64,000 nt of DNA from Flavobacterium urumqiense (lineage in GTDB: Bacteria; Bacteroidota; Bacteroidia; Flavobacteriales; Flavobacteriaceae): positions 1 through 64,000 of the forward strand of contig NZ_FNVP01000011.1 in assembly GCF_900108015.1 (NCBI RefSeq). Direction: 5' to 3'. Shown here piece after piece: positions 8,441 to 37,631 of the stretch (positions within the stretch are counted from its first letter, which is position 1; each line of letters starts with the position of its first letter). The position numbers were made by a program, and so were the translations under genes. Below the pieces are notes generated by a model. The model had not been told where the DNA came from, made no database searches, and saw only the letters and a program-made list of their open reading frames with translations.

Positions 8441-9523
8441 ATGAAAAAAATATTTATCCCAATACTGACTGTAGCCCTGATCCTTTTAACTTCCTGTAAC
8501 GGAGAAAAGAAAGAGGCTCCTGCCAAAGAACTTGCCATTGCCGTGAAAGTAAGCGGGATTTCGTCCAATGACAACAGTCCATTTGTAACGGCAAGCGGAA
8601 AAATTGAAGCCGAAAACAGTGCCAATCTCAGCACTAGAATGATGGGGTATGTCACCAAAATTCATGTACAGGTAGGACAAAAAGTAGGTGCCGGACAATT
8701 ATTAGTCAGCATCAACAATACTGATTTGCAAGCCAAAAAAGCACAAGTCGATGCCAGTATTCATCAAGCGACTGCTGGTTACAGCAACGCTAAAAAAGAT
8801 TACAATCGTTTTGTAAATTTATTCAAACAACAAAGTGCCTCTCAAAAAGAACTCGACGATATTACAGCACGTTACGAAATGGCGAAAGCAGGATTGGAAG
8901 GAGCCAGACAAATGCGAAACGAGATTTTAGCTCAGTTTTCGTATTCGAATATTACAGCTCCGTTCTCGGGAGTGGTGACCAATACTTTCGTAAAAGAAGG
9001 TGATATGGCGAATCCCGGAATGCCTCTAGTAAGTTTGGAAGGCGCTTCAAAATTACAAGTAACGGCGATGGTTTCTGAAAATGATATTGTAAGTATAAAA
9101 AAAGGAATGACTGTCAATGTTTTGGTAAAATCATCTAATGTCACACTGACCGGAAAAGTTAGCGAAGTGAGTATTTCGGCTGCGAATACTGGAGGCCAAT
9201 ATTTGGTGAAGGTAAATTTAGATAAAACAGATGCATCAGTTTTATCAGGAATGTTTGTAAATGTGCAATTTCCTGTTGCAAACAAAACTCAAACGGTTGA
9301 AACTAATAGAATTTTAGTGCCCGAAAATGCTTTGGTAAAACAAGGACAACTAAGCGGGATCTACACGATTGCAACTGGAAACATTGCCATTTTAAGATGG
9401 TTACGAATTGGGAAAACGTTTGGCAATCAAGTAGAAGTTTTATCTGGTTTATCCGCTAATGAGCAATACATTGTTTCAGCAGATGGAAAGTTGTATAACG
9501 GAGCTTTGGTTCGTGTTCAGTAA
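8441..9523 (+). CDS. RND efflux periplasmic adaptor subunit (lipoprotein)
   Basis: This is the membrane-fusion protein that links the inner-membrane pump to the TolC-like channel. It has 360 residues. The signal sequence ends in a lipobox (LLTSC, Cys19), so it is probably lipid-anchored. A biotinyl-lipoyl-like half motif (GYVTKIHVQVGQKVGAGQLL, about 70-89) is followed by a coiled-coil hairpin (about 95-165). The second lipoyl half (FSYSNITAPFSGVVTNTFVK) and beta-barrel segments come after. Gene order (channel, adaptor, pump) supports the role. A 180-bp spacer with a structured repeat separates it from the pump gene. Confidence 0.92.
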   Translation: MKKIFIPILTVALILLTSCNGEKKEAPAKELAIAVKVSGISSNDNSPFVTASGKIEAENSANLSTRMMGYVTKIHVQVGQKVGAGQLLVSINNTDLQAKKAQVDASIHQATAGYSNAKKDYNRFVNLFKQQSASQKELDDITARYEMAKAGLEGARQMRNEILAQFSYSNITAPFSGVVTNTFVKEGDMANPGMPLVSLEGASKLQVTAMVSENDIVSIKKGMTVNVLVKSSNVTLTGKVSEVSISAANTGGQYLVKVNLDKTDASVLSGMFVNVQFPVANKTQTVETNRILVPENALVKQGQLSGIYTIATGNIAILRWLRIGKTFGNQVEVLSGLSANEQYIVSADGKLYNGALVRVQ

Positions 9524-9593
9524 TAAAGTTTAAGGTTTAAGGTTTAAACCAAAAAACTGAAAATCTATAAAATAAATGTCATTGTTAATTCCG

Positions 9594-9690
9594 CGTGAGG
9601 GATTGAGGCGGCATCCTTTTGTAAAGCGCAGCGGAACAAAAGATACAGCCGAAAGCCCGACCCGACCTTTTTGGGAGGGTCACGCCCAAA
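9594..9690 (+). repeat. dispersed structured repeat, copy A
   Basis: This GC-richer segment sits between adaptor and pump genes. It contains a stem formed by ATCCTTTTGT (9613-9622) and ACAAAAGAT (9636-9644). Flanking blocks GCGTGAGGGATTGAGGCGGC, AAAGCCCGACCCG and GTCACGCCCAAA follow a fixed order. The same blocks recur at 36881-37000 (same strand) and at 25130-25320 (opposite strand). The stem pairs change together between copies. Confidence 0.7.
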
Positions 9691-9703: not shown

Positions 9704-12700
9704 ATGCAAGAAGGTATTTCAGGTAAAATAGCCCAATTTTTTATTAACTCAAAACTGACCATTTTGCTGATGGTGGGTTTGATGATTATTGGAGTTTATA
9801 GTTCGTTTCTGATTCCGAGGGAAGAAGAACCGCAGATTAATGTTCCGATGGCCGATGTAATGGTGGGTTATCCGGGAGCGAGTCCTACTGAGGTGGAAAG
9901 TCGTGTGGCCAAACCATTGGAGAAAATTATTTCGAATATTAAAGGAGTGGAACACGTGCATACGATGGCGATGAACGGTCAGGCGATGCTGATTGTGCAG
10001 TTTTATGTAGGTCAGGATGTGGAGCGTTCATATGTTAAATTGTACGACGAATTAGCGAAACACGAAGATATGTTTCCGAAAGGAGTATATAAACCGATGG
10101 TGAAAACACGTTCTATTGATGATGTTCCTATGTTGGGAATTACGCTTTGGAGTGCTAAACAAGATAATTTTCAGCTGCGCCAAATAACCGAAGAAGTAAC
10201 ATCGGAGATTGAAAAAATAAAAGATGTGGCGATTACCAAAGAAATTGGTGGCAGCAATCGCGAACTGAAAATAATTCTCGACAAGGATAAAATGGCCGAA
10301 AATGGCGTGGATGCTTTGGGAATTATGCAAATGATACAAGCCAATAACGGAAGTTCACAATCAGGGAGTTTTGTACAAAATGACCAGGAATATTTGATTA
10401 CTACAGGTCAGTTTTTATCGAATGCCGAAGATGTAGAAAATTTAGTGGTTGGTGTAAATAAAAACATGCCAGTATATCTGAAACAAGTGGCGAAAGTGCA
10501 AGACGGACCGGCTACGCCCAGAAGTTATGTGTCTTTTGGCTATGGCAAAGCCAATGAAAAATTCAAAACGGCAAAATCAGAATATCCTGCCGTCACTATA
10601 TCAGTTGGTAAAGTTAAAGGGGCAGATGCAATGAAAATTTCGGAGAAAATAATTGCGAAAGTAGAACAGCTAAAGAAAAATTTAATCCCGACTGATGTTC
10701 ATGTTGAAATCACCCGTAATTATGGGGAAACAGCCTCGGATAAAGTAGGCGAATTATTGTTGCATTTGGGAGTGGCGATAGTAGCAGTAACTATTTTGGT
10801 GATGTTAGCCATGGGATGGCGCGGTGGATTGGTCGTGTTTTTCTCGGTTCCATTGACATTTGCACTTACCTTGTTTGCTTATTATTTATTGGACTATACG
10901 TTGAATAGGATTACCCTTTTCGCTTTGGTTTTTGTTGTGGGAATTGTGGTCGATGACAGCATTATCATTGCCGAAAACATGCATCGACACTTCAAGATGA
11001 AGCGACTGCCCTTTAAACAAGCGGCTATTTATGCGATAAATGAGGTGGGAAATCCAACGATTTTAGCAACATTTACTGTTATTGCGGCTATTTTGCCAAT
11101 GGCTTTCGTATCCGGAATGATGGGACCATATATGAGTCCGATGCCAATTGGTGCTTCGATTGCAATGATTTTGTCTTTGTTTGTGGCTTTGACTGTAACG
11201 CCTTATTTGGGATATCATTTGCTTCAGGAAAAAGACGATCAAAAACACAAAGAATCTGAAGGATTAGAAACCAGTCGTATTTATAAATTGTACAACAAAC
11301 TGGAACGACCATTCTTAGAAAGCAGTACAAAAAGAAGAATACTACTTGCCGTTACTGTTGTGTTATTGTTTGGTTCTGTTTTGATGTTTTTCACGAAATC
11401 AGTAGTGGTAAAAATGTTGCCCTTTGATAACAAAAATGAATTTCAAGTCGTGATTGACATGCCCGAAGGAACAACATTGGAGCGAACTGCAGCGGTTACC
11501 AAAGAAATTGCTCAGTATTTATCCACCAGAGCAGAAGTAGTCAATTATCAGAATTATATTGGAACCTCTGCTCCTATTACATTCAACGGATTGGTACGTC
11601 ATTATGATTTGCGTGGCGGAAGCAACATGGCGGACATTCAGGTGAATTTATTGCACAAAGAAAACCGTGATATACAAAGTCATGCAATTGCCAAAGCGAT
11701 GCGTCCTGCCATCCAGAAAATTGCTAAGAAATATGGCGCAAACGTGAAATTAATTGAAGTACCACCAGGACCGCCTGTATTGTCAACCTTGGTTGCTGAG
11801 ATTTATGGTCCAAATTATAAAGACCAGATAAAAGTAGCCCAACAGGTGAAAACTATTTTGGAAACTACTTCGGATGTTGTGGATATTGACTGGATGGTTG
11901 AAGACAATCAAACGGAGTATAAACTAGAAGTGGATAAAGAAAAAGCGATGCTGAATGGAATTGCTCCGCAGCAAGTGGTTGGGAATTTGACGTATTTACT
12001 CAAAGAATATCCAATTTCTAATTTGTATGATGAAAATTCGAATGATAATGTGGGAATTGTTCTTTCGCTTGACGATAAAGACAAAACGAGTTTACAGGAC
12101 ATTCAAAACCTAAAAATTAAAGGAAGCCAGGGAAATATGATTCCCGTAAGTGATTTGGTAAAAGTAAAAACGGATACATTACAAAAAACCATTTACAGAA
12201 AAGACCAGAAACGTGTGGTTTATGTAACAGCTGATATGGCTGGAGCATTAGAAAGTCCGGTATATGCGATTTTAGGAATGAGTGAAAAATTGACTAAAAT
12301 GAAAGTCCCAAAAGGATACAAAGTCAATGAATTGTACATGGAGCAACCCACGGATGAAAGTGATTTTACTGTAAAATGGGATGGGGAATGGCAAATTACT
12401 TTGGAAGTATTCCGTGATTTAGGAGTTGCCTTTATGGTGGCCATCGTAATCATTTATATGTTGATTGTGGGCTGGTTCCAAAACTTTAAAACACCAATTG
12501 TGATGATGCTCGCTATTCCGCTATCCTTAATCGGGATTGTGTTTGGTCACTGGTTGTTAGGTGCTTATTTTACAGCTACTTCTTTCATTGGAATGATTGC
12601 ATTAGCTGGTGTTATGGTAAGAAACTCGGTTTTACTGATTGACTTTATAGAAATCCGACTGAATGATGGTGTCGCATTAAAACAAGCGATAATCGAGGCT

Positions 12701-12895
12701 GGAGCTGTGAGAACCTCTCCTATTCTATTGACAACTGGTGCGGTGGTTATTGGAGCTTCCATCATATTATTTGATCCTTTGTTTCAGGGATTGGCTATTT
12801 CCTTGGTGTTTGGAGCAATAGTTTCCACTATTCTAACATTGATTGTGGTACCATTGATTTATTATATAACGGAGAGAAAGAAATGGGAAAAATAA
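9704..12895 (+). CDS. RND efflux transporter permease (AcrB/MexF-like)
   Basis: This inner-membrane proton-driven pump has 1063 residues, the usual length for RND permeases. A first membrane segment (about 14-35) precedes a large periplasmic pore region. Membrane segments cluster at about 350-550, a second periplasmic loop follows, and a second membrane cluster covers about 910-1055. The proton-relay Asp pair is visible in VVGIVVDDSIIIAENMHRH (TM4, near residues 415-430). TM10-11 contain a conserved polar or Arg-rich loop, GVMVRNSVLLIDFIE. It forms an operon with the upstream channel and adaptor. Drug versus metal specificity is not clear. The DD motif is more like drug or general efflux pumps than CusA-type pumps. 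Confidence 0.93.
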   Translation: MQEGISGKIAQFFINSKLTILLMVGLMIIGVYSSFLIPREEEPQINVPMADVMVGYPGASPTEVESRVAKPLEKIISNIKGVEHVHTMAMNGQAMLIVQFYVGQDVERSYVKLYDELAKHEDMFPKGVYKPMVKTRSIDDVPMLGITLWSAKQDNFQLRQITEEVTSEIEKIKDVAITKEIGGSNRELKIILDKDKMAENGVDALGIMQMIQANNGSSQSGSFVQNDQEYLITTGQFLSNAEDVENLVVGVNKNMPVYLKQVAKVQDGPATPRSYVSFGYGKANEKFKTAKSEYPAVTISVGKVKGADAMKISEKIIAKVEQLKKNLIPTDVHVEITRNYGETASDKVGELLLHLGVAIVAVTILVMLAMGWRGGLVVFFSVPLTFALTLFAYYLLDYTLNRITLFALVFVVGIVVDDSIIIAENMHRHFKMKRLPFKQAAIYAINEVGNPTILATFTVIAAILPMAFVSGMMGPYMSPMPIGASIAMILSLFVALTVTPYLGYHLLQEKDDQKHKESEGLETSRIYKLYNKLERPFLESSTKRRILLAVTVVLLFGSVLMFFTKSVVVKMLPFDNKNEFQVVIDMPEGTTLERTAAVTKEIAQYLSTRAEVVNYQNYIGTSAPITFNGLVRHYDLRGGSNMADIQVNLLHKENRDIQSHAIAKAMRPAIQKIAKKYGANVKLIEVPPGPPVLSTLVAEIYGPNYKDQIKVAQQVKTILETTSDVVDIDWMVEDNQTEYKLEVDKEKAMLNGIAPQQVVGNLTYLLKEYPISNLYDENSNDNVGIVLSLDDKDKTSLQDIQNLKIKGSQGNMIPVSDLVKVKTDTLQKTIYRKDQKRVVYVTADMAGALESPVYAILGMSEKLTKMKVPKGYKVNELYMEQPTDESDFTVKWDGEWQITLEVFRDLGVAFMVAIVIIYMLIVGWFQNFKTPIVMMLAIPLSLIGIVFGHWLLGAYFTATSFIGMIALAGVMVRNSVLLIDFIEIRLNDGVALKQAIIEAGAVRTSPILLTTGAVVIGASIILFDPLFQGLAISLVFGAIVSTILTLIVVPLIYYITERKKWEK

Positions 12896-18338: not shown

Positions 18339-18373
18339 TATATTTGAATAATCAAATTACATTTATATCTTTG
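18339..18373 (+). promoter_or_regulatory. candidate trp operon promoter -7 elements
   Basis: Two perfect TAnnTTTG matches precede the leader peptide: TATATTTG at 18339-18346 and TATCTTTG at 18366-18373. The first would leave a short untranslated leader before the trpL start at 18379. The second would give an almost leaderless transcript. Which one is used cannot be decided here. Confidence 0.5.
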
Positions 18374-18378
18374 TAGTA

Positions 18379-18435
18379 ATGAAAACAATTACAAACAATA
18401 CTTGGTGGTGGAACAATTTACGTCAGACGTCGTGA
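18379..18435 (+). CDS. trpL: tryptophan operon leader peptide
   Basis: The 18-residue open frame reads MKTITNNTWWWNNLRQTS, with three consecutive Trp codons (18403-18411). It lies directly upstream of a hairpin-plus-T-run and trpE. Three Trp in an 18-residue peptide is not expected by chance in such AT-rich DNA. This is the layout of a classical translation-coupled attenuator: ribosomes stall at the Trp codons when charged tRNA-Trp is scarce. Its stop codon (18433-18435) lies inside a segment that can pair with the terminator region. Confidence 0.88.
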   Translation: MKTITNNTWWWNNLRQTS

Positions 18436-18500
18436 ACAAAGCTTCCATAGTATTACTAACTATAAATATAAAAGGCTTGTCATCACGACAGGCCTTTTTT
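18429..18500 (+). promoter_or_regulatory. trp attenuator: antiterminator and terminator
   Basis: The terminator is an 11-bp stem, AAAGGCTTGTC (18471-18481) with GACAGGCCTTT (18487-18497), followed by more T residues. The alternative pairing is GTCGTGA (18429-18435, spanning the trpL stop codon) with TCACGAC (18483-18489), which would break the terminator's loop and 3' arm. A ribosome stalled at the Trp codons leaves 18429-18435 free and favours read-through. One that reaches the stop codon covers it and favours termination. Confidence 0.8.
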
Positions 18501-23946: not shown

Positions 23947-25128
23947 ATGAGTTACAACGTCAACGAAAAAGGCTACTACGGAGAATTTGGAGGCGCTTAC
24001 ATTCCTGAAATGTTATATCCAAATGTCGAAGAATTACGTCAAAATTATTTAAAAATTACGGCTGAACCAGAATTTCAAGCTGAATTTGATGCCTTGTTAA
24101 AAGATTACGCAGGTCGCCCTACGCCTCTTTATTTTGCAAAACGACTATCGCAACAATACAATACTAAAGTTTATCTGAAAAGAGAAGATTTGTGTCACAC
24201 TGGCGCCCATAAAATCAACAATACTATCGGACAAATTCTTTTGGCAAAACGTTTAGGCAAAACCAGAATCATAGCTGAAACAGGTGCTGGACAACATGGT
24301 GTCGCTACAGCAACTGTCTGTGCGCTAATGGGATTAGAATGTATCGTTTATATGGGAGAAATCGACATCAAGCGTCAAGCGCCAAATGTAGCTCGTATGA
24401 AAATGTTAGGTGCTGAAGTTCGTCCCGCTCTTTCAGGATCTCGTACACTAAAAGACGCAACTAATGAAGCCATTCGCGATTGGATCAACAATCCCGTTGA
24501 CACCTATTATATCATAGGATCTGTAGTGGGACCGCATCCTTATCCAGATATGGTAGCGCGTTTTCAAAGTGTTATTTCTAAGGAAATCAAGGAACAATTA
24601 CTGGAAAAAGAAGGACGTGAAAATCCAGATTACGTAATCGCTTGTGTAGGTGGCGGAAGCAACGCTGCCGGAGCTTACTATCATTTTCTTGATGAATCGT
24701 CCGTGAATATTATCGCTGTTGAAGCCGCAGGATTAGGAGTAGATTCGGGCGAAAGTGCCGCTACCTCCGTCTTAGGTAAGATTGGCGTCATTCATGGCAG
24801 CAAAACCTTGCTAATGCAATCTGTTGACGGCCAGATTACCGAACCATATTCCATTTCTGCAGGTTTGGATTACCCAGGAGTTGGTCCTATGCATGCGCAT
24901 CTGTTCGCTTCAAAAAGAGCACAATTCATTTCCATCACAGATCAGCAAGCCATGGATTGGGGTTTAAAATTATCTAAAATGGAAGGTCTGATTCCTGCAA
25001 TTGAAAGCGCGCATGCCTTTGCTGTGCTCGACGAAATGAAATTCAAGCCAGAAGATATCGTAGTCATCAACCTTTCTGGTCGTGGCGACAAAGATTTGAA
25101 TACCTACATCGATTATTTTAAATTATAA
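23947..25128 (+). CDS. trpB: tryptophan synthase beta chain
   Basis: TrpB condenses indole and serine on PLP. It has 393 residues, the normal length for the TrpB1 type. The PLP Lys is Lys89 in [25 protein letters not shown] is the substrate-binding block, [15 protein letters not shown] holds the PLP phosphate, and [13 protein letters not shown] is the C-terminal block. Codon use and conservation look normal. A 236-bp spacer that contains a structured repeat separates it from the next gene. Confidence 0.97.
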
Positions 25129-25129
25129 G

Positions 25130-25320
25130 TTGGGTTTATCCCGTATTTATTTCGGGGCGTTACCTCGCTTTCACTAGCGTTTCAGCGCGGTCAGGCTTTC
25201 CGTTGCAATCTTTTTTATCTCGTTAAAAAACGAGATAAAAAAGGATTTCCACTTCAAACGAAGTTCACTGAACTCCAATAAAAAATAAGAGTTTAGTGAA
25301 GTAATCCTTAACGAAAACCC
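25130..25320 (-). repeat. dispersed structured repeat, copy C (inverted, expanded)
   Basis: Read on the minus strand this carries the same ordered blocks as the copies at 9594 and 36881 (on the plus strand: GGGCGTTACC, GGTCAGGCTTTCCGTTGC, a long stem, then AATCCTTAACG). The stem is ATCTTTTTTATCTCG (25208-25222) with CGAGATAAAAAAGGAT (25231-25246), longer than in the other copies. It has an extra hairpin between blocks (TTCACTGAACTC near 25264, GAGTTTAGTGAA near 25289). It lies inside the trp operon after trpB. Confidence 0.65.
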
Positions 25321-29062: not shown

Positions 29063-29369
29063 TTTTTTTTTCTCAGGGAGCTATATATTCCATTAATTTT
29101 AATTCAGATAAAAAAATTCTGTTTAGAAATACCATTTTATAAACTAATCAATGGGTATCAAACTCGTGTACCATTTCGTTGGTCATAGACGGAAGGTTGG
29201 AAAACCTCTATGTATTTGATGCCATTGTGCCAACCTATCAAATTAGTAAAGGCACTGCTAAACAGAATTTATACATTACAAAAATACGATATATTAAGCA
29301 TCTGACTTTTATATAGTTTTTCAATTTATTTACAAAATTCACAGTTCGTAAAAGTAAAAGAGAGTTATG
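29063..29369. other. 307-bp spacer between convergent genes
   Basis: No convincing gene is seen. On the minus strand a short stretch (about 29145-29225) reads in one frame as NLPSMTNEMVHEFDTH before a stop. It could be a decayed coding fragment, but I recognise no family. A direct or inverted GGTTGG/CCAACC pair (about 29193, 29232) is also present. No clear terminator was found. Confidence 0.3.
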
Positions 29370-36752: not shown

Positions 36753-36880
36753 TATTTTTAGAATTCAAAATGATAAAATTAAAAATCAAATACAATTATA
36801 ATAAACCACTTACAATTACGAAAACCTATAATCCTACAAAACAAACTTCATAACTCCATTATTCCTCCTCTGCAGGATTT

Positions 36881-37000
36881 GCACGAGAGATGGAAGTGGC
36901 ATCCTTTTATAAAGCTTCGCGGAATAAAAGATACAACGAACAGCTCGACCCGGAGTTGCGAGGAGGAACGACGAAGCTAAAACCGAGGGGCGTGCCCAAA
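36881..37000 (+). repeat. dispersed structured repeat, copy B
   Basis: The segment has the same block order as copy A at 9594. GAGAGATGGAAGTGGC comes first, then the stem ATCCTTTTAT (36901-36910) with ATAAAAGAT (36924-36932), then ACAGCTCGACCCGG and GGGGCGTGCCCAAA. The stem position that is G-C in copy A is A-T here, so pairing is kept. About 20 extra bases sit before the last block. The rest of the 36544-37139 spacer is AT-rich, without a gene. Confidence 0.7.
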
Positions 37001-37139: not shown

Positions 37140-37631
37140 ATGAAAGACAAAACAATAGATTACATATTACGAGCTACCTGGCAAGCGGTCGCCAGAATGT
37201 ATAATGAAGAAGCTTCTAAATATGATGCGAGTATGGCAACGGGTTTTGCTTTATTGAGTATTGACAAGGATGGCGGAACGCCCTCAACGGCTTTGGGTCC
37301 AAAAATGGGAATGGAAGCCACAAGCCTGACCAGAACCTTGAAATCTATGGAGGAAAAGGAATTGATTATTAGAAAGAAAAACCCTGAAGATGGCCGTGGT
37401 GTTTTGATTTACCTTACTGATTTTGGTAAAGAAAAAAGAGAGTTATCTAAGAATACGGTTTTGAAATTTAATGAAACCGTCAAACAACACATCTCTGAGG
37501 AGAAGCTGCAACATTTTATTGAAGTGGCTGAAATCATCAACGAATTAATTTTGGACAAAAATATTTTTAATCACGCGAGCGTCAGCGAACTGATGGAGCA
37601 AACTGAAAAAACAGAAAATGATATCGCCTGA
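37140..37631 (+). CDS. MarR-family regulator of the beta-oxidation operon
   Basis: This 163-residue protein has a winged helix-turn-helix. GTPSTALGPKMGMEATSLTRTLKSMEEK is helices 2-4 with the recognition helix, and IIRKKNPEDGRGVLIYLTDFG is the wing. N-terminal helices (DYILRATWQAVARMYNEEA) and C-terminal helices form the dimer. It is 62 bp upstream of the fad genes and is probably co-transcribed. I infer that it represses this operon and itself through the inverted repeat at 37088-37105, and that acyl-CoA is the likely effector. Confidence 0.88.
   Translation: MKDKTIDYILRATWQAVARMYNEEASKYDASMATGFALLSIDKDGGTPSTALGPKMGMEATSLTRTLKSMEEKELIIRKKNPEDGRGVLIYLTDFGKEKRELSKNTVLKFNETVKQHISEEKLQHFIEVAEIINELILDKNIFNHASVSELMEQTEKTENDIA

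Follow-up and report, generated by a model that had tools for sequence, protein, structure and literature searches.

The ERIC elements of enterobacteria and the BOX elements of pneumococcus are intergenic, about 100-150 nt long and present in tens to hundreds of copies, and they are foldable, modular and of uncertain function. Motifs of the Weinberg type often act as cis-acting RNA elements. REP and REPIN repeats, the partners of the REP-associated tyrosine transposases (RAYTs), are high-copy extragenic palindromes whose pairing is kept by compensatory changes; REPs are 20-40 nt long, carry a GTAG tag and flank the rayt gene, and REP-RAYT units are defined by a rayt gene standing between copies of its own repeat (PMC2817692). 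Palindromic repeats with a CGTC tag, reported from several phyla including Bacteroidetes, also occur without a dedicated transposase (PMC3733652). Closest of all to the locus considered here is Flavo-1, published in 2010 as a likely RNA of Bacteroidetes, not cis-regulatory (Weinberg et al., PMC2864571), and listed since then as a structured RNA of unknown function. Its matches in Flavobacterium psychrophilum lie indistinctly sense or antisense of transcripts, with many outside them, and give no functional clue (PMC9723704).

The DNA at issue, referred to below as the window, is the whole 64-kb stretch that was analysed. An original prediction made from its letters had proposed a dispersed structured repeat in three copies: two (A and B) sharing ordered blocks and a stem in which ATCCTTTTGT/ACAAAAGAT changes to ATCCTTTTAT/ATAAAAGAT, both of which are there in the sequence, and a third, inverted and with a longer stem, which is indeed found as copy C. 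A covariance-model search of the window returned all three as separate matches to Flavo-1 (Rfam RF01705; Table 1). What the prediction had missed is that the family is already in Rfam, described in 2010. With the curated gathering score at 42 bits, copy A is 0.3 bits short and copies B and C are above it. The block proposed for copy A, 9594-9690, corresponds to a real element whose closing stem P1 begins one base earlier, at 9593, and the long-stemmed copy C is likewise real, but broken by a nested palindromic insertion of ~48 bp. All three are intergenic in spacers next to or inside operons, as had been said: A between the RND-efflux adaptor and permease genes, B 5' of the MarR-type regulator gene, and C 3' of trpB in the trp operon.

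Table 1. Flavo-1 copies of the window, their parts, their Rfam matches (64-kb search) and the adjoining genes
Feature	Position	Strand	Detail
RND efflux periplasmic adaptor gene, 5' of copy A	8441..9523	+	TIGR01730, 199 bits
RF01705 match, copy A	9583..9666	+	41.7 bits, E 1.6e-5
Copy A, class II Flavo-1	9593..9685	+	RF01705 match; kept at the orthologous site in relatives
Copy A, parts			P1 GCGTG 9593-9597 / CACGC 9681-9685; P2 (Rfam hairpin) 9599-9658; P3 9660-9680
RND efflux permease gene, 3' of copy A	9704..12895	+	NF033617/NF000282 family matches
trpB-like gene adjoining copy C	23947..25128	+	identified by its C-terminal sequence
Copy C, class II Flavo-1	25158..25313	-	antisense within trp operon
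Copy C, parts			P1 CGTTA/TAACG; long P2 tip; P3 GACCGCGCTGAAACG..GCGAGGT
RF01705 match, copy C	25185..25269	-	55.1 bits, E 3.2e-9
Nested palindromic insertion (ACTTCACTAAACTC...GAGTTCAGTGAACTTCGTTTG), ~48 bp	25255..25302	-	interrupts 5' arm of copy C
RF01705 match, copy B	36876..36954	+	49.3 bits, E 1.2e-7
Copy B, class II Flavo-1	36881..36995	+	RF01705 match
Copy B, parts			P1 GCACG 36881-36885 / CGTGC 36991-36995; P2 36887-36946; long P3
MarR-type regulator gene, 3' of copy B	37140..37631	+	MarR-family matches, all below family cut-offs

These copies are a small sample of the family. The same search of the 3.44-Mb genome gives 111 matches at E<=10, 91 of them over the Rfam cut-off, and the repeat is dispersed as predicted, with ~90 copies between the genes of this Flavobacterium-like genome. 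Flavo-1 is present in 58 of the 61 sampled genomes of the genus, many of which score at least 64 copies, and in 83 of 247 genomes of the class. Three genus members (G018, G020, G058) have zero copies and two (G024, G033) have one each; since these few are almost without it, and those with trpB matches look deep-branching, Flavo-1 appears to be dispensable.

When all copies of this genome were read together with their flanks, two architectures emerged. The majority, class I, follow TAGCCCYGATx...xAGCRGGAAATAGCTCC, a pattern that among named genomes is found mostly in Flavobacterium but also in Chryseobacterium, Halpernia, Epilithonimonas and one Chitinophaga MAG. The minority, class II, to which A, B and C belong, follow GCGTG-A-GGGATx...xAGCCCG-ACCC[loop]GGGT-CACGC, so that where class I has the ends TAGCCC..AGCTCC the window copies have GCGTG..CACGC. 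They share with the Rfam motif an identical P2 hairpin and consensus, aligning to model positions 1-76, and differ from it by two stems that the 76-nt model does not include: P1, which closes the element, and P3, the third stem, which is variable. Together the stems of class II make a three-way junction. P1 occurs in the compensatory states GCGTG/CACGC, GCGTT/AACGC (the trp site), GCACG/CGTGC (copy B, two compensatory changes from copy A) and GCATG/CATGT (L137). Its fifth pair, seen as GC, TA and AT, is intact in 31 of 32 rows, where shuffling gives 27 at most; the remaining P1 pairs are nearly invariant and by themselves carry little information. P3 is exchanged whole, among ACCC..GGGT, TTCGCC..GGCGAA and CCCG..CGGG.

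Covariation in the stem, the other part of the original prediction, proves on wider alignment to be real and strong, in lower P2, in P1 pair 5 and in changes seen in place. Among 135 parsed elements, most of them found with a covariance model that favours paired sequences, each lower P2 pair is intact in 132-135 rows and five variable pairs exceed all 2000 shuffles. One (P2 pair x) is A-T in 71, G-C in 32 and T-A in 26 elements, with a shuffle maximum of 85, and another takes all four Watson-Crick types (C-G 51, T-A 45, G-C 17, A-T 13; shuffle maximum 82). The helix is interrupted by two conserved 3x3 internal loops. In the outer one GNA nearly always faces GNA, and in the inner one either GNA faces GNA or GNY faces ANA. 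From the pattern of pairing the element strand can, we conclude, fold as hairpin P2 with two conserved G.A-type 3x3 internal loops and a freely exchangeable tip. Minimum free energy folding of single copies provides weak evidence for copy A (z -1.75) and copy B (z -0.99) and strong evidence only for copy C, from a piece folded without its 5' arm; the conserved non-Watson-Crick loops carry an energetic cost.

Given the preference of the covariance model for paired copies, tests in place at orthologous sites are the fairer ones. At 13 sites shared with a related genome (G017), where orthology was taken from the flanks and both members of each pair are model matches, the lower stem shows 12 two-sided and 5 one-sided changes that preserve the pair, and 1 break. 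Sites A and C were located by flanking sequence rather than by the covariance model, and are thus free of its pairing preference. A class II element stands between the same two efflux genes as copy A in 24 of 30 loci including our own (23 of 29 related) and is absent from 6; as the list favours loci with the element, an uninterrupted match ranking higher, the rate of retention was left unused. Three changes on the permease gene tree suffice to account for its presence and absence, a pattern that would fit an ancient insertion lost a few times since, and the 23 parsed copies hold 21 distinct tips above a lower stem with only two unpaired cells. At site C, between trpB and the gene that follows, ~12 relatives have an element in antisense orientation, with its own version of P1 (GCGTTA..TAACGC) and a fold kept under 9 distinct tips. 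At the level of sequence, then, the fold is demonstrably kept in place by compensatory changes, whether the element is sense or antisense to its neighbours.

What do these features say of the strand that folds? In the tip helices isolated G.U on the element strand outnumbers A.C by 22:7 (p=0.008), with ratios of 10:3 in copies antisense to both neighbours and 4:0 at the orthologues of site C. As G.T is the milder mismatch in single-stranded DNA also, the excess shows which strand folds, and not whether it does so as RNA or as DNA. With regard to neighbouring genes, 62 copies are antisense and 35 sense (p=0.008), 35 lie between divergent and 14 between convergent genes, and on the 5' side of the element the adjacent gene is directed away from it for 97 of 146 copies (p=9e-5), the 3' side being unbiased. 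Short tip loops are mostly T-rich (63 of 77); GNRA and UNCG loops number 0 among the 77, and tip-loop composition lends no support to RNA-specific loop selection. No consistent replication-strand bias, a sign of single-strand transposition, appeared in five complete genomes among the matches listed. An intrinsic terminator was considered and rejected: by inspection the element strand is mostly A-rich after the element and often T-rich before it, which puts the T-run on the wrong side.

The account that we favour, over a cis-acting RNA and as the probable one, is that Flavo-1 is a dispersed intergenic element of the ERIC/BOX kind, in which the folded strand acts as the functional unit. It is high-copy, without coding capacity and intergenic: ORFs of 120 aa or more contain the midpoints of 4 of 93 copies, as compared with 81% of random positions. 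In size, spacer location, copy number, foldability and variable inner parts it is like ERIC and BOX; it differs in its phylum and in its two conserved 3x3 G.A loops. Flavo-1 would then be a family of intergenic repeats in Bacteroidota, high in copy number and non-autonomous, and its copies may arise as discrete units moved by a putative trans-acting enzyme outside the RAYT/Y1 family. Once inserted in A/T-rich spacers they would be retained through recognition of the folded single strand, presumably as single-stranded DNA at the fork or as RNA read from the element strand. Tip turnover would be replacement by other palindromes, and tip pairing could partly be a product of hairpin-directed mutation. 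The family itself is known; what is new here is the class II junction, the conservation in place in both orientations and the exclusion of a RAYT. An entry of vague annotation is thereby recast as a dispersed element, with a larger class having two extra stems, a fold that persists even in the trp operon, where the copy is antisense, and the obvious transposase removed, and it becomes a set of specific questions. Which strand acts, which enzyme moves it, and is it still mobile?

Mobility is what differences in copy number and in site occupancy suggest. Related species differ about twofold, with ~92 copies in this genome (G000) and 42 in G017, and presence or absence is polymorphic at orthologous sites, whether by insertion or by deletion. 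Spacers of relatives that are without Flavo-1 sometimes hold another palindrome, such as AACCCTGTCAGGGTT..AACCCTGACAGGGTT at the L023 site. At another site (L013) our copy and that of G237 are near-identical outside the tip, and the tip is a different palindrome in each. A relative from another family (G362) has three copies that are 98-100% identical over a unit of ~140 bp with sharp edges; these could be local duplications. In our genome the likeness of nearest paralogues has a median of only 81% and a maximum of 95%, so that activity here may be ancient. At the sites examined no target-site duplication, transposition event, parent transposon or responsible enzyme was seen, and plasmids, phages and viral contigs, in collections that probably hold few Flavobacterium records, gave no match. 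In several copies (L098, L111, L228, L232 and others) the tip includes a palindrome that can be recognized on its own (GTCATTGCGAGGAACGAAGCAATC; CTGAACTTGTTTCAGGATCCTGAAACAAGTTCAG) and turns up again in other copies and other species, as though tips were places where other repeats land or are exchanged. Palindromes like GTCATTGCGAGGAACGAAGCAATC may be related to the CGTC-tagged repeats, which Flavo-1 resembles in its occurrence in Bacteroidetes and in the apparent lack of a dedicated transposase, and differs from in lacking the CGTC tag. The ~48-bp palindrome nested in copy C is missing from its orthologue in G007 (L212), recurs at L211, L218, L242 and L253, sits inside Flavo-1 at GATT and looks like a second, nested mobile repeat. 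Integron attC sites came to mind from the variable tip and the GTTAG-like end of some copies, and were rejected, since the copies are scattered and class II forms a three-way junction rather than one hairpin.

A bolder version of the dispersed-element account, which we put forward tentatively as possible rather than probable, is that Flavo-1 is primarily mobile DNA. The folded strand, with its zipper-like 3x3 G.A loops and swappable tip, would be the substrate of a putative non-Y1 system widespread in Bacteroidota, and the copies would afterward be kept by the host for a role at the DNA level that is independent of gene direction.

That RNA transcribed from the element strand folds and regulates the stability, processing or translation of adjoining genes, in other words that Flavo-1 is a cis-acting RNA, we judge to be on the unlikely side, though it is the most serious competitor. 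Conserved G.A internal loops are typical of structured RNA, the fold is kept in place at the sense site A inside an efflux operon, and the G.U preference falls on the element strand. However, the antisense site C retains the fold too, copies antisense to both neighbours exceed those in sense and a further 35 lie between divergent genes, the functions of neighbouring genes are mixed, and the tip loops are devoid of GNRA and UNCG. The matches in F. psychrophilum, of no consistent strand and often outside transcripts (PMC9723704), point the same way.

Could the pairing be unselected? Quasi-palindrome correction is a known mutational process, and template switching in imperfect palindromes, by copying one arm onto the other, would let hairpins repair themselves; the wholesale replacement of tips that nevertheless remain paired is what it would yield. 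Yet such a process would erase the G.A internal loops, and almost every copy has them unpaired; it also leaves unexplained both the bias of G.U over A.C and the retention of P1, P2 and P3 while the remaining spacer diverges. We regard it as improbable for the element as a whole.

More doubtful again, and to our minds very improbable, is that Flavo-1 is a REP/REPIN-type repeat mobilized by a RAYT, the transposase for which a search had been proposed. Flavo-1 shares with those repeats its nature as a high-copy extragenic palindrome with compensatory changes, and the genome has one RAYT (NF047646, 109.6 bits, cut-off 80). This sole RAYT, though, is flanked by a different repeat, ACAATCGTTAGCGCAGTTT..AAACTGTGCCCA, of which the genome has 11 matches, several clustered near the gene. 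Flavo-1 lies within 1.5 kb of only 1 of 30 Y1 loci. Of 20 genomes in which Pfam Y1_Tnp has no match, 12 have 30 copies or more, and genomes with and without Y1 show no significant difference in copy number (p=0.10). A Y1 transposase is thus rarely a neighbour of Flavo-1 and is not required for its high copy number. Flavo-1 is longer than a REP (~90-155 nt), has no GTAG tag, ends in TAGCCC or GCGTG and is unlinked to the RAYT. The RAYT gene itself (L059; G000:C11:142396-143934) is accompanied by REP-like repeats of its own, both direct and inverted, which are likely the true REP family of this genome.

The idea that Flavo-1 is the gene of a small RNA acting in trans would accord with the Rfam type label (Gene; sRNA) and with the 2010 listing as a likely RNA that is not cis-regulatory (Weinberg et al., PMC2864571), yet it is scarcely credible for a family whose ~90 copies per genome have diverged, run in either orientation and have no gene associated with them.

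Some minor observations may be of use to others. Four loci (L403-L406, in G467 and G331) are two copies each of a ~310-bp direct repeat, 23 kb and 9 kb apart respectively and in the same orientation, which starts with a resemblance to the Xer dif site (TTATAATG..CATTATGTTAA) and ends as a class II Flavo-1; they are possibly the two ends of an Xer-integrated island. Upstream of the trp operon that holds copy C the window has a Bacteroidete tryptophan peptide leader RNA (RF01692, 74.8 bits) at 18359-18481 (+). At 29145-29249 (-) there is a match to the Rhizobiales sRNA Atu_At1 (50.3 bits, E 2.5e-5, below the cut-off of 60), which is unexpected in a Flavobacterium-like genome and may be a distant relative within a wider RNA family.
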